Assembly (NCBI GenBank): GCA_003576915.1
Contig: QEVF01000003.1
Coordinates: forward strand, 177,737-241,736
DNA from: Planctomycetota bacterium
GTDB taxonomy: Bacteria; Planctomycetota; UBA8742; UBA2392
Reading direction: 5' to 3'
DNA length: 64,000 bases
Shown here: positions 17,019 through 55,008 of the stretch, one piece after another
Layout of the letters: each line of letters opens with the position of its first letter
Position numbering within the stretch: the stretch's first letter is position 1
Made by a program: the position numbers and the translations under genes
Notes under the pieces: model-generated
Database searches by the model: none
The model's input: only the letters and a program-made list of their open reading frames with translations
What the model was told of the DNA's origin: nothing

Positions 17019-17999
17019 ATGCGCTTTATCCTGCTGGCCCTGTTGTTGTTTGCTCCCCTGGTCCGCGCCCAGACTCAGGGTTCGCCTGCCCCTGACTTCA
17101 CCATGGGCGGCCTCAGCGCCTACAGCGACGCCACCACCCGCGCCGACTGCCTGGGCAGTGTCATCGTCATCAAGATCTGGGGCATCACGTGAGCGCCCTG
17201 CCTGCGGCAGTTGCCGCACCTGCAGGAAGTGTGGGAGAAGAACAAGGCGCGCGGCTTGCGCGTGTTTGCGGTGGAAGGCGACGGTCTGACGGCGCTTGAG
17301 AACTTCGCCTTTGCGGGCGAAAACAAGTACACATTTCCGATTGTGACCGCGTCGGAGAGTTCGCTGGCGAGCTGGGACATCAAGACGATGCCCAACACGT
17401 ATGTGGTGAACGCCGAGGGCCTGCTGGTGTTCAAGGGCTCCGAGGGATGGGACGGCATCGTCGAGAAGGAACTGGCCCGGCGCCCCTACACCGGCCTGAA
17501 CAAGGACAAGGTCGAGAAGGACTGCGAGAAGGCGGCGGCGGCCTTTGGCAAGGGTGATTACGTCAAGGCGGCGGAGTTGGCCAAAGCAGTAGTGGAAGGC
17601 AAGCCCTCGGAGGCCGCCGTGGCCGATGCACAGATGATCATCGAGGCCTGTGCCGCCACGGAGCAGAAGCTGCGGGCGGCGGCGGACCTGGCCAAGGGCG
17701 AGAAGCGTTACGCCGATTGCCTGGAGGCCCTGGACAGGCTGGCCTCGGGCTTCAAGGGCACGGAGAGCGGCACGAAGGCTGAAGCGGAGGCCAAGGAGTT
17801 GCGCAAGGACAAGGACGTAAAGAAGGAGTTGGGCGCCTGGCAGGCCCTGCGCCAGGCCCTGGAGTCGAACAAGAAATTGAAGAAGGCCGAGAAGGTGAAG
17901 GCGCTGCGCGGCGTGCAGAAATCGCAGGAAGGCACGGAAGCCGGCGCCAAGGCCAAGGAACTGGCCACGGCCATCGAGGGCTCAAAGTACTTCCGCTGA
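17019..17999 (+). CDS. Selenocysteine-containing exported thioredoxin/TlpA-like protein (in-frame TGA)
   Basis: Read through an in-frame TGA at 17190-17192 this is one 326-residue protein. It has a signal peptide (MRFILLALLLFAPLVRAQ), a TlpA/AhpC-type thioredoxin fold opening with SPAPDF, the active site WGIT-Sec58-APC61, the cis-Pro block TMPNTYVVNAEG, then a charged helical tail of about 160 residues. In TlpA proteins the motif is WxxWCxPC, so Sec replaces the first redox cysteine. The start ATG has GGAG upstream. A stem-loop right after the TGA fits a bacterial SECIS. A paralog with the same TGA and the same total length lies at 49828. Read as stops, the TGA would leave a 57-residue fragment ending just before the active site. 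It probably acts as a periplasmic thiol-disulfide oxidoreductase; the tail may bind partners. Confidence 0.88.
17197..17226 (+). promoter_or_regulatory. Candidate bacterial SECIS element (selenoprotein 1)
   Basis: The element begins 4 nt after the TGA. The lower stem CCTGC (17197-17201) pairs with GCAGG (17222-17226). After a 1x3 internal loop comes a 6-bp upper stem, TGCGGC (17203-17208) with GCCGCA (17213-17218), capped by loop AGUU. The loop G is at 17210, 18 nt after the last base of the TGA, within the spacing known for SelB-binding elements, which need a G in the first two loop positions. It lies inside the coding region. Confidence 0.75.
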
Positions 18000-49827: not shown

Positions 49828-50808
49828 ATGAAGACGCTGGCATGGGCATTTCTCCTGGCCGCGCTGAGTCTGGCTGCGCCCCTGAGTGCGCAGCTCAAGG
49901 GCAAGCCGGCGCCGGATTTCTCGGCGGGTGAAAGTTTGACGGCAAGGCAGGACCACCGCACCCTCGCGGACTGCAAGGCTGAGGTCGTCCTGATCAAACT
50001 GTGGGGCATCAAGTGACCGCCCTGTGTGAAGGCGTTGCCTTCACTCCAGGGTCTCTGGAACGAATACGGAGGTAAGGGTCTCAACATGTTTCTGCTTGAG
50101 TCCCAGGGCACCGAGGAAGGCGCCCTGAAGAAGTTCCTTTCGGACCGCGGCATCACGGCGCCGGTTTACAAGGGCGGCCTGAGCGGCTACGACGGTGATA
50201 ACGGCCTGCCTTTCACCTACGTGATCGGCGTGGACGGCACGGTGGTGTTCGAGGGTCGCGGAGACTACCACTCGGTGGTCAAGAGCGAGATGGCCAAGAT
50301 CAAGTACCCCGGCCTGGGCAAGCTGGAAGTGGCCAAGGGCCTTGAGAAGGCCGCCATGAGCTTTGTCGAGAAGCAGTTCGCCAAGGCCATCGAAGACTGC
50401 AACAAGGTGATCGAGAAGGGCAAGGACGAAGCGGCGGTCGAAGACGCGAAGTTCATCATTGATCGCTGCAACGCCGAGGGCGCGAAGATTCGCGCCAACG
50501 TGGACAAGGCCAAGGAAGAAAAGCGCTACCTCGACGCGTTTGCCGGCCTTGAAACCCTGGCCGTCGGCTTCAAGGGTATGGAGCTGGGCGATGCGGCTGC
50601 GGCTGAACTCAAGGAGCTGAAGAAGGACAAGGAAGTCAAGCGCGAGGTGGATGCCGCGACCGCCCTGCAGCGACTGATCGAAAGCCAGAAGACGGTCAAG
50701 AGCAAGACGGACCGGGCCAAACAGCTGCGCGACTTTGCCAAGAAGAACGACGGCACCCGCGCGGCTGAAGACGCCAAGACGCTGGCCGATCAGATTGAGG
50801 CGGGTTAG
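49828..50808 (+). CDS. Selenocysteine-containing exported thioredoxin/TlpA-like protein, paralog 2 (in-frame TGA)
   Basis: Read through the TGA at 50014-50016 this is a 326-residue protein, the same length as the paralog at 17019. It has a signal peptide (to about LSAQL), KPAPDF at the start of the thioredoxin fold, the active site WGIK-Sec63-PPC66, and FTYVIGVDG at the cis-Pro strand. The final about 150 residues are charged helices (KGLEKAAMSFVEKQFAKAIED; LETLAVGFKGMELG) that match the paralog segment LDRLASGFKGTESG. The ATG at 49828 has GGAG upstream. A SECIS-like stem-loop follows the TGA. Downstream is a Cys-type thioredoxin lipoprotein with WCPYC. Likely a periplasmic redox enzyme; substrate unknown. 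Confidence 0.88.
50020..50051 (+). promoter_or_regulatory. Candidate bacterial SECIS element (selenoprotein 2)
   Basis: The lower stem CCCTG (50020-50024) pairs with CAGGG (50047-50051). After a 1x2 internal loop with a U comes a perfect 8-bp stem, GTGAAGGC (50026-50033) with GCCTTCAC (50037-50044), capped by loop GUU. The loop G (50034) is 18 nt after the TGA, identical to the first element. The U in the internal loop on the 5' side recalls the bulged U of known SelB targets. Confidence 0.78.
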
Positions 50809-50832: not shown

Positions 50833-50856
50833 GGCGCCCCGGTTCGCCGGGGCGCC
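50833..50856 (+). terminator. Terminator after selenoprotein 2
   Basis: A perfect 10-bp GC stem (50833-50842 with 50847-50856), TTCG tetraloop and a TTGCTTT tail lie 24 bp after the stop. Confidence 0.75.
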
Positions 50857-50968: not shown

Positions 50969-51706
50969 ATGTCCACGATGGTCCAACGCAGTCTCAACCT
51001 CGTCCTCGCCCTGGCCTTGGGCTCGCTCGTCGTGGCCGGCTGCACGCTGGCTTCCGAGAATCCCGAGTCTGGCTACGGCACAGACGCCTCGGGCAACGAA
51101 ACCTACAAAGGCCACAACGTTTCCAAGTACCATCCGCGCCGCGCTTCGAGCGAGGAACCGGAGACGCCCAAATCCGGCGGCGGTGAGGTGTGCCCCCTGC
51201 CGCCCACGGCCGAAAAGGACGTGCTCCAGAAGTTCAAGGTGGGCGACCTGTTTCCTGACTTCGTCCTCAAGGACGTCGTCAGCGGCAAGGAAGTCAAACG
51301 CAGCGAGCACGGCAAGGGCCACTATCAGATGATATTGATGTGGGCCTCCTGGTGTCCCTACTGCCGCACCGCGCAGGAGAAGTCGGCCAAACCCATCTTC
51401 GAGGAATTGAACAAGGACGGAAAGACCCGCCTGGATGTCATTGGCGTGGGGGTCAACTTCCTGGACGACACTCCGGCGGCCCAGAAGACCTTCATCCAGA
51501 GCAACAGGATTCCGTGGACCTGCGTGTTTGACCAGGACGCCCAGGTGAAGGACGGCATCGGCAGCGACTTCATTCCGGCGGTGATTCTGCTTGATGAAAG
51601 CGGCAAGATTGTCACTTACGGCTACTACATGGACGACTACGCCCGTAAGCTCAACAACTACCTGCGCGACGCCTGCGAGTTCAAGGACAGGAACCCTGGA
51701 AAGTAG
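50969..51706 (+). CDS. Thioredoxin/TlpA-like lipoprotein (Cys form)
   Basis: A 245-residue lipoprotein with lipobox VVAGC (Cys24 when starting at ATG 50969). After a linker of about 60 residues a TlpA-type fold opens with VGDLFPDFVLKDVVSG. The active site WASWCPYC has both cysteines, followed by VGVNFLDD and the cis-Pro block DFIPAVILLDESGK. It is a membrane-anchored periplasmic thiol-disulfide oxidoreductase. It lies downstream of the Sec paralog but has its own leader of 112 bp after the terminator. An ATG three codons later is an alternative start. Confidence 0.85.
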   Translation: MSTMVQRSLNLVLALALGSLVVAGCTLASENPESGYGTDASGNETYKGHNVSKYHPRRASSEEPETPKSGGGEVCPLPPTAEKDVLQKFKVGDLFPDFVLKDVVSGKEVKRSEHGKGHYQMILMWASWCPYCRTAQEKSAKPIFEELNKDGKTRLDVIGVGVNFLDDTPAAQKTFIQSNRIPWTCVFDQDAQVKDGIGSDFIPAVILLDESGKIVTYGYYMDDYARKLNNYLRDACEFKDRNPGK

Positions 51707-51777: not shown

Positions 51778-54700
51778 ATGCCTGAAGCAGATCCCATCCT
51801 CGCCGAACACAAGACGCTGGGCCCCTACACCCTGATCAGGAAACTGGGCGAAGGCGGCATGGGAGGTGTTTATCTGGGCCGCCACAACGTGCTGCACGTC
51901 GAGCACGCCATCAAGATCATCCGGCCCCGCATGGCAGCCGACCCGCAGCTTGTCGAGCGCTTTCTGCGCGAGGCCCGCCACGCGGCGAGGCTGATTCACC
52001 CCAACATCGTGCAGGTGCTGGCCGCTGATGTGGCCGACGGCCTGTACTACCTGGCCATGCAGTTCGTGCCGGGCCAATCCCTGGCTGACGCCGTGGCCAA
52101 GGGCAAGCTCTCGCCCCACCGCGCCACCCGCTACATTCATATGTCGGCTTTGGGCCTGGCCTACGCCCACAAGAAGCAGATCATTCACCGCGACATCAAG
52201 CCCGGCAACATCCTCATCGACGAAGACGACAACTGCAAGATCACCGACTTCGGCCTCGTGCGCGACATGACCGCCGACGACACGGGCCAGAACAACCTGA
52301 CGCAGACCGGCCTGATCATCGGCACGCCCCATTTCATGCCGCCCGAACAGTGGCACGGCGAAGGCGTGGACCATCGCAGCGACATCTATGCCCTGGGCGT
52401 CACCCACTACCACCTCATCACACGCAGCTATCCTTACCCCGGCCGCACTCCGCCCCAGATTCTGGGCCTGCTCATGCAGGGGCGGCCCGAGCCCCTGAAG
52501 AAGTTCGCGCCAGCCTGCGACGACGACCTCTGTGCGCTCATCGCCAAGGCCATGCATGTCGATCCCGCCCAGCGTTATCAGAGCGCGCTGGAATACGCCC
52601 AGGCCATCGACAAGTGGTGGGCCGCCCATCCACCCACGGAGGCGGAGTCCGCCCAACTGGCCCTGGCCGCCGGCGAGGGCGGCGGCACCCGTCTCGTCAG
52701 CCCCACCCAGCTGCGCACCGGGCCGCAAAGCAGCGCGGCAGCGGCCTCCTCGGGCTCCTCGCGCGAGGGGGTGGTGCAGCCCGGCGTCACGCTTGTGGCC
52801 GTCACGCCGCCAGCCACGTCGGCGGCAGCAACTTCGGCGGCTCTTGCCGGCGCGACGCGGGCCAACCAGGCTTCGGCCCCGGCTGTTTCGCAGGCCACCT
52901 TGGCGCCTGCCAGCGCGTCGGGCACCCCCACGTTCACCCAGGGGCCCGTCACCATCGTTCAGGAAAGCTCCAAGACCGGGCTTCTGGTGCTGATTGCCCT
53001 CATTGCCATTGCCGCGCTGGCCGTAGGCGCCTATGCGGCGTTCTCCACGGGCAAGAACGGGGGCAACGAGCCGGTGTCGAAGGGTGACACGGGCAAGCCC
53101 CCGGCTCCCGCGCCCGAGTTCAGCCTGGCCCTGCCTTCCACGGAAGCCACGGCCGACGCTCCCCTGTTCACGTCATCGGCCAGCTACGTCATTGAGGGCA
53201 GGAGCAACGTGCCCGTCACGCTCAACGGCAATCCCTACAAGCTGGGAGATCCCGTCCCGCTCAAGCCCAGGCTCAATGTGCTCAAGGTTTCGGCCAGGCT
53301 TGGAGAAGACAGCGCCCAGCGCGAACTGCATGTGTTTCTCGACCAGCAGGCCCCCGAACTGGCCTGGCGCCAGTTTGATGAGGCCAGGGGCGGCGTGTTG
53401 CCCACGGCGGAACGCAGCGTGAGCCTCGTCGGGGTGGCCACCGACGACGACCCCCAGACCGAAATCCTCTGCACGATCGGCAACGTGGTCCGGCCGCCCC
53501 TCATCGTCGACAAGGGCGGGGCGTTCAGCATCCCCGTGCAGGTGGGCGAAGAACCCGTGTTCGTCGAGCTGTGCGCCCGGGATCGCGTCGGCAACAAGTC
53601 GGAGGCCCGACGCATCGAGATCGTGCCCGACCGGCTCGAACTCGCCCTCAACTGGTTCGACCTCAAGGGCGAGCGCACGGTCTGGAGCCCCCAGGAGGTC
53701 GTCAGCCTCAAGGGCAAGCTCAACAAACAGCGCGGCTGCACGCTCACCCATGAGGGCAAGCCGTTGACGCTGGCCGCTGACGGCAGCTTCACGCTGGAAA
53801 AGACGCTGCCCGCCGGACGCCACAGGGTCGCCGTCGAGGCCGCCGACTGGCTCAAGGGCAGCCTCAGCTCCGAGCTGACGGTTGTGGTGGACCTTGAGGC
53901 GCCGAAGTTCCTCGATCTCGCGCCCGCGGCCGGGGACGCGCTGCTGGCTGATGCTTTTCCGTTTGAAGTGAAAGTGTCGGGGCGGCTGGATGACGCCGAA
54001 GCCCGCCTGAAGCTGGGCCAGGAGACGCTCAAGCTCGAGGGCGGCAGGTTTGAGAAGACGTTGTCGGTGAATGAGGCGGGCGAGGTGAAGCTGGAGTTTG
54101 TGGCCAAGGACCTCAATGATCGCGAAACCCGGGTCAGCCACAGCTTCAGCGTCAGGTTGCGCCGCTACAAGCCCCTGGGCAAGAACCCCCAGGGCTTCAT
54201 GGAGTACGAGCGAGTCAGTGACGGCATGGTCATGATCGAACTGCCCGCCTCGAAGTTTGTCCAGGGCGTGGCGGAGGGACTGCCCGACGCCCCAAGGCGC
54301 GAAGTCGAGCTTTCCGGATTTCTCATCGGCAAGTTCGAGGTCACCAACGACCAGTTTGCGCGCTTCCTCAACGCCCGCGCCGTCAGCCCCGCCGAAGCCG
54401 TGCAGCAGGGTCTGATCGCGCGCAGCGGCGAGGGCTTCCTGCACCTCGCTCACGACGGCAAGTCCTGGATGGCTGAAGAGGGCTTTGGCAACTTTCCCGT
54501 TGTCAACGTGCCCTGGAAGGGCGCCGATGCCTACTGCCGCTGGGCCGATGACGGCGGTTCCCTGCCCACCGAGGCCCAGTGGGAACTGGCCGCGCGCGGC
54601 AGCGACGCCCGGGTCTATCCCTGGGGCGCCGACCGCCCCAACGGCGAGCGCAGCGTGTTCAAGCGCAGCGGCTATGCGGGCATCCAGAACGTGGGACGCG

Positions 54701-55008
54701 CGGCCAAGGGCGCTTCGCCCTGCGGCGCGCTGGATATGGCCGGCAACGTGGAAGAGTGGTGCTTCGACTGGTACGACGACACGGCATACACCCGCGGGGG
54801 CAAGGACCCACTGGTCAAGGACAAGCCGTCAACGTCTGACCGGCGTGTCGTGCGAGGCGGCAGCTTTGAAACGGATGCCGCCTCGGAAGTCAGGCCCAGC
54901 GACAGCGACGCCGCCAGCGACCTGCGCACTTTCTTCCGCGGCCGGCGCGCCCCGGCCAGCGTTTCGGAGTTCCGCGGGTTCCGTTGCGCAGCGCGCAGCG
55001 CGCAATAA
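51778..55008 (+). CDS. Ser/Thr protein kinase fused to a formylglycine-generating-enzyme-like domain
   Basis: A 1076-residue membrane protein. The kinase domain (about 14-280) is complete: GEGGMGGVYLG (P-loop), HAIKII (Lys46), IIHRDIKPGNILI (catalytic Asp), ITDFGLVRD and GTPHFMPPEQW. An Ala/Ser-rich linker and one membrane helix (about 400-422) follow. Residues about 440-810 form beta-sandwich-like repeats. The C-terminal FGE-sulfatase (SUMF1) domain (about 815-1075) shows FLIGKFEVTNDQFARFLN, PVVNVPWKGADAYCRW, LPTEAQWELAARG, MAGNVEEWCFDWY and VVRGGSF. The outer part may sense or bind, as in related planctomycete proteins. The PP2C at 26816 is a possible opponent. Confidence 0.92.
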   Translation: MPEADPILAEHKTLGPYTLIRKLGEGGMGGVYLGRHNVLHVEHAIKIIRPRMAADPQLVERFLREARHAARLIHPNIVQVLAADVADGLYYLAMQFVPGQSLADAVAKGKLSPHRATRYIHMSALGLAYAHKKQIIHRDIKPGNILIDEDDNCKITDFGLVRDMTADDTGQNNLTQTGLIIGTPHFMPPEQWHGEGVDHRSDIYALGVTHYHLITRSYPYPGRTPPQILGLLMQGRPEPLKKFAPACDDDLCALIAKAMHVDPAQRYQSALEYAQAIDKWWAAHPPTEAESAQLALAAGEGGGTRLVSPTQLRTGPQSSAAAASSGSSREGVVQPGVTLVAVTPPATSAAATSAALAGATRANQASAPAVSQATLAPASASGTPTFTQGPVTIVQESSKTGLLVLIALIAIAALAVGAYAAFSTGKNGGNEPVSKGDTGKPPAPAPEFSLALPSTEATADAPLFTSSASYVIEGRSNVPVTLNGNPYKLGDPVPLKPRLNVLKVSARLGEDSAQRELHVFLDQQAPELAWRQFDEARGGVLPTAERSVSLVGVATDDDPQTEILCTIGNVVRPPLIVDKGGAFSIPVQVGEEPVFVELCARDRVGNKSEARRIEIVPDRLELALNWFDLKGERTVWSPQEVVSLKGKLNKQRGCTLTHEGKPLTLAADGSFTLEKTLPAGRHRVAVEAADWLKGSLSSELTVVVDLEAPKFLDLAPAAGDALLADAFPFEVKVSGRLDDAEARLKLGQETLKLEGGRFEKTLSVNEAGEVKLEFVAKDLNDRETRVSHSFSVRLRRYKPLGKNPQGFMEYERVSDGMVMIELPASKFVQGVAEGLPDAPRREVELSGFLIGKFEVTNDQFARFLNARAVSPAEAVQQGLIARSGEGFLHLAHDGKSWMAEEGFGNFPVVNVPWKGADAYCRWADDGGSLPTEAQWELAARGSDARVYPWGADRPNGERSVFKRSGYAGIQNVGRAAKGASPCGALDMAGNVEEWCFDWYDDTAYTRGGKDPLVKDKPSTSDRRVVRGGSFETDAASEVRPSDSDAASDLRTFFRGRRAPASVSEFRGFRCAARSAQ

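Follow-up and report, generated by a model that had tools for sequence, protein, structure and literature searches.

A predicted exported selenoprotein with a thioredoxin-like domain and a C-terminal helical domain, from an apparently large family in planctomycete bacteria

The window, the whole 64,000-nucleotide stretch of planctomycete DNA analyzed here, comes from an assembly of 3.9 Mb in 59 contigs. At 49828-50808 on the + strand, it carries a single frame of 327 codons that runs from ATG to TAG, preceded by a Shine-Dalgarno-like GGAGA and interrupted only by an in-frame TGA. Translation bore out the earlier note, which had placed this TGA (50014-50016) in WGIK-Sec-PPC within one continuous frame of that length. 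The TGA occupies the position of the first residue of the thioredoxin UxxC motif, and ordinary gene calling cuts the gene in two there. GC at third codon positions is 0.79 before the TGA and 0.82 after it, and codon-position GC is alike on both sides. The locus and a paralogous gene in the window hold the following features.

17019-17999, + strand: paralogous predicted selenoprotein gene, 326 aa, with Sec TGA 17190-17192 in WGIT-U-APC and stop TGA 17997-17999
17203-17218, + strand: predicted bSECIS of the 17019 paralog, UGCGGC-AGUU-GCCGCA, from folding and covariation
49828-50808, + strand: complete predicted selenoprotein gene, 326 aa, with Sec63 and TAG stop
49828-49893, + strand: predicted Sec-type signal peptide MKTLAWAFLLAALSLAAPLSAQ, with hydrophobic core, AxA-like cleavage site, and AF2 helix 4-14
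49900-50310, + strand: ResA/TlpA-like thioredoxin domain (AhpC-TSA/Redoxin), with UxxC at 63-66 and probable cis-Pro128
50014-50016, + strand: in-frame TGA, predicted to be read as Sec (U63 in WGIK-U-PPC), from homologs, selection, SECIS-region codons, and Sec machinery
50019-50052, + strand: predicted bSECIS of the window gene, with lower stem 50019-50024/50047-50052, upper stem 50026-50033/50037-50044, and apical loop GUU 50034-50036
50320-50805, + strand: C-terminal eight-helix domain, common to NF041382 VPGUxxT selenoproteins, from profile match and structure prediction
50833-50856, + strand: 10-bp G+C hairpin with UUCG loop, directly 3′ of the TAG, found by sequence inspection
50969-51706, + strand: neighboring Cys-type redoxin lipoprotein (WASWCPYC), of a family distinct from that of the window gene; synteny kept in the closest relative

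Judged by its signal peptide, the window protein would be exported and extracytoplasmic. The hairpin after the stop codon is the probable end of the transcript, though a terminator scan did not score it as a terminator because its T run is weak. Rfam matches near the gene were sub-threshold sRNA hits only and were rejected, their source being this same G+C hairpin. Beyond the redoxin lipoprotein, a Ser/Thr protein kinase fused to an FGE-sulfatase domain (51778-55008) is also syntenic in the closest relative. Scanning the window for additional frames with TGA readthrough, with a filter that also missed the gene at 49828-50808, yielded no further convincing candidate of the UxxC type.

We then examined whether the TGA column is conserved across 81 distinct full-length homologs. 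The catalytic position is TGA in 48, Cys in 17, Asp in 15, and Ser in 1; none of the 81 has a second internal TGA, and none ends at the catalytic TGA. The genome itself holds a selenocysteine tRNA with a UCA anticodon, SelA approximately 800 bases away on the same contig, SelB, and SelD, whose own frame contains a TGA. Selection was estimated by pairwise Nei-Gojobori comparison of the window gene against three orthologs, at 93, 74, and 65% identity. Omega after the TGA was 0.116, 0.207, and 0.200, respectively, and in the mature part before it, 0.066, 0.232, and 0.465. In the closest pair, the 20 codons past the TGA have an apparently high omega of 0.60 because constraint at the RNA level lowers pS, which is 0.071 there versus 0.26-0.48 elsewhere. 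A premature TGA usually marks decay and this one lies on a single MAG contig, but a pseudogene, whether from nonsense mutation or assembly error, is refuted by 48 homologs with TGA at this very position, some of them in MAGs of separate projects, by the low omega past it, and by the presence of a SECIS.

The published bSECIS model calls for a loop of 3-9 nt with G in the first two loop positions, a stem of 4-16 bp, a distance of 16-37 nt from the UGA, and an MFE of ≤ −7.5 (PMC13188914). With an upper stem of 8 bp and a GUU loop 17 nt from the UGA, the window hairpin agrees with all four published criteria (PMC13188914). The 39 nt from the TGA fold with an MFE of −22.6 kcal/mol (z = −5.25), as good a value being reached by 0 of 200 shuffles. 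Mean folding z was −1.48 for Sec copies (n = 48), −0.19 for Cys copies (n = 17), and −0.52 for Asp copies (n = 15). The stem in the clade of the 17019 paralog (type B) has another sequence than that of the window gene clade (type A) and is shifted by one base in register; four of its six pairs show changes on both sides, equaled in none of 500 shuffles. Pairs of the type A stem are nearly invariant, and their covariation comes mostly from one distant sequence, so the weight of the SECIS evidence falls on type B covariation and on synonymous constraint. Synonymous variation is absent from codons 67-71 throughout the 19 sequences of the window gene clade. Leu at +7 is encoded by TTG in 38/38 Sec copies with Leu there, against a TTG background of 11.8%, and in 0/8 Cys or Asp copies.

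In-frame UGA aligned with a catalytic Cys, a hairpin fitting the bSECIS model, and Sec machinery in the genome are three of the criteria for a bacterial selenoprotein, and the window gene shows each of these three. A reading in which this lineage uses TGA for an ordinary amino acid, or generally reads it through, would accommodate the several genes in this genome with one internal TGA, but we consider it highly improbable. TGA terminates 25 of the 81 family genes, including 14 of the 48 Sec-type genes, and therefore is not reassigned genome-wide; moreover, a tRNA-Sec is present, catalytically intact relatives without the TGA have Cys at the aligned site, and the region directly past the internal TGA is synonymously constrained. 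Collectively, the sequence data constitute strong evidence that TGA 50014 encodes selenocysteine. The earlier note's reading of this TGA as Sec is upheld by the Sec machinery, the SECIS with covarying pairs, and the Cys or Asp at the aligned site in paralogs without TGA; both the homologs ending at the TGA and the loss of purifying selection past it that it had named as contrary outcomes were looked for and are absent.

The window gene and the gene at 17019 do share length and layout, as had been noticed: both encode 326 aa with one TGA at the catalytic site, and the proteins are 42% identical over 309 aa. Their equal length is a coincidence, since other family members span ~324 to 348 aa. Nine matches to the window protein were found in its own genome, seven of them with exactly one TGA, and the Sec active sites are WGIKUPPC, WGITUAPC, WGSNUGPC, WATWUGPC (twice), WKIHUEPC, and WGCGUPPC. 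The two matches without TGA are a paralog with WQIRDIGS and a more distant protein with WATWCGPC. One short WATWUGPC Sec member (L008, contig C8, minus strand) has no helical tail but instead a C-terminal membrane segment and an end resembling a zinc ribbon. The proposal of a planctomycete selenoprotein family thus stands, but not as a pair, with at least seven Sec paralogs in this genome. Nor are the two window genes independent copies: they are paralogs in a larger family, and Sec was most likely inherited before duplication.

Next, we compared the protein with known folds and families. It exceeds the Pfam gathering scores for AhpC-TSA/Redoxin (PF00578/PF08534; 33.7 versus 26 and 29.3 versus 26.6 bits), and its AF2 model has a pLDDT of 93.7 overall and 97.3 in the tail. 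The model and Foldseek both give a thioredoxin fold with the redox pair two residues apart (UPPC), and the best PDB matches are of the ResA/TlpA type. For what the earlier note called a charged helical extension, structure prediction gives eight helices folded into a compact domain rather than a loose extension, and the already named selenoprotein family NF041382 has this domain too. Searched alone in Foldseek, the tail found no significant solved relative, only weak TPR matches such as BamD and YbgF. It does match positions 190-348 of NF041382 (E = 1.6e-22), a model hit by 51 of 54 family members.

NF041382 (VPGUxxT type 1) resembles the window protein in having a C-terminal helical domain behind a thioredoxin-like selenodomain, but has its own N-terminal domain and a VPGUxxT active site where the window protein has UxxC. 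The window protein scores 80.3 bits against its cut-off of 350, through the tail only and with the motif WGIKUPPC, and so falls outside full membership. One sister genome encodes a genuine VPGUxxT selenoprotein (L103, 1420-2550) that has the same helical tail. Between the tail of the window protein and a VPGUxxT protein in a sister genome, identity is 39% over 158 aa, and this common tail indicates one helical module on two different Sec thioredoxin types. NF041054 (ResA-like WAxxUGC), also a long ResA-like selenoprotein family, matches 15 of 54 members weakly, but has a UGC motif rather than UxxC; the window protein is not among its matches at E 0.1, and the 17019 paralog scores 20.1 bits against a cut-off of 300. 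ResA, TlpA, and CcmG (NF002854, NF047696, TIGR00385; PDB 4nmu, 1st9, 1jfu) share the fold, the active-site position, and an exported thioredoxin-like domain, but have Cys where the window protein has Sec and lack the helical tail, and the window protein falls below their cut-offs. UxxC TlpA-like, redoxin, and Prx-like oxidoreductase selenoproteins (cd02966, PF08534, PF00578), with a thioredoxin fold and Sec first in UxxC, are already known (PMC13188914), and the window family is a variant of these. Their entries in Table 1 of that review give domain and motif only, without helical tail, tandem Sec/Cys/Asp copies, or planctomycete expansion; the term planctomycet is absent from it (PMC13188914), and planctomycete selenoproteins of other kinds are already on record (PMC4807772). 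No NCBIfam model covers the window family at its own cut-off, and a literature search, with subscription papers mostly outside it, returned no description of the family.

Each of the 15 remaining genomes in the taxonomic family has homologs of the window protein, and the named records that hold close relatives are Planctomycetota MAGs. Of 294 Planctomycetota genomes, 222 are hit by the family profile at 1e-20, a count in which only seven candidates were scored per genome and some matches may be to the thioredoxin domain alone. From these sequences, this appears to be a large selenoprotein family without a previous name, with many copies per genome in planctomycete bacteria. In a tree of 81 proteins, all Asp copies group in a single clade (100/100), and Sec and Cys labels require eight and six changes, respectively. 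Because Sec occurs in both deep subdivisions of this midpoint-rooted tree, it was probably the original residue, later replaced by Cys on separate occasions and by Asp once. One Asp-type protein and its relatives (L003, 1474-2490; 15 sequences) form a monophyletic clade, kept across the family, with a conserved Asp for Sec and no second Cys. The thioredoxin-like proteins of the Asp clade are apparently redox-dead.

Sister genera (L068, L071, L072, L073, L074, L075) carry tandem arrays of Sec, Cys, and Asp copies, with a PCMT (protein-L-isoaspartate methyltransferase) gene after them and, in most, a divergent ABC-F-type ATPase facing them on the other side. A fourth thioredoxin at the end of these arrays was rejected as an overlapping-frame artifact, the real gene being the PCMT methyltransferase. 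In another genome of the same family (L059, 5866-10600), four members are clustered, with two Sec genes on one strand and a Sec and a Ser-type gene on the other. The closest relative (93%) has a Cys copy after the Sec gene and ahead of the redoxin lipoprotein gene, and the flanking genes are conserved on both sides; the absence of this Cys copy from the window genome is most likely due to loss.

The genome has one match to DsbD_TM (L121, 304-2847, contig C27), in a frame with two internal TGA codons. These lie at IDFNGEY-U-TAC and IDFTGPA-U-KDC, in thioredoxin-like domains on either side of the membrane domain. The two further genomes of the genus (96 and 74% identical) retain both codons, and most of the family retains the C-terminal codon. 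A SECIS-like hairpin with a GGUCU loop follows the first.

We favor, at roughly 80%, a reading in which the window protein is an exported Sec thiol-disulfide oxidoreductase, made by SECIS-directed UGA decoding, re-reduced by DsbD, and equipped with a tail that binds a substrate or partner. SelB and tRNA-Sec would decode UGA codon 63 as Sec under the direction of the adjacent downstream SECIS. Fold and motif suggest that the Sec63/Cys66 pair reduces disulfides or other oxidized thiols outside the cytoplasmic membrane. What is generally known of such enzymes, together with gene content rather than gene neighborhood, points to the membrane protein DsbD as the reductant. The C-terminal eight-helix domain probably binds a substrate or partner protein, and paralogs with differing active-site loops probably act on different substrates. 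Where Sec was lost, the products would be Cys enzymes and, for a single clade, Asp forms without redox activity, which perhaps serve as binding partners or competitors.

Two other readings accept Sec and are each improbable, though clearly less so than reassignment. In the first, UGA is a selenium-responsive switch, giving full enzyme with selenium and, without it, a stop after 62 residues, with Cys paralogs substituting. The tandem Sec, Cys, and Asp copies of sister genera and the Cys copy adjoining the Sec copy in the closest relative would suit such a switch, but no regulatory element was found, and the window genome has no Cys copy at the site. In the second, the protein is not a general disulfide reductase but a peroxidase or a metal/metalloid-handling thiol protein (peroxiredoxin-like, copper-chaperone reductase, or mercury/arsenic-related). 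The Pfam calls, AhpC-TSA and Redoxin, count in its favor, as do the common use of Sec by peroxidases and the reduction of cysteines in copper chaperones by relatives of TlpA. Against it, UxxC, the probable cis-Pro, and ResA, TlpA, and CcmG as closest solved relatives argue for disulfide exchange, and no metal genes adjoin the window gene.

Beyond the thiol-disulfide oxidoreductase reading itself, a DsbD with two UxxC sites reached by readthrough makes a selenium-based relay plausible. A tentative and rather doubtful extension is a relay outside the membrane in which the double-Sec DsbD would feed at least seven Sec thioredoxins, all with the same helical domain dedicated to docking; the redox-dead Asp paralogs would be their conserved partners.

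Members of the window family are probably truncated or missing in annotation because ordinary gene calling splits genes at TGA. The family points to a selenoprotein expansion in a phylum that a recent review leaves unmentioned, and the Sec-to-Cys changes suggested by the tree would enlarge a class that the review calls rare (PMC13188914). With Sec, Cys, and Asp all kept at the same position among paralogs of one genome, the family amounts to a natural experiment on the benefit of Sec over Cys. Together, the window family and the two-Sec DsbD would make a selenium-dependent pathway of extracytoplasmic reduction directly testable.
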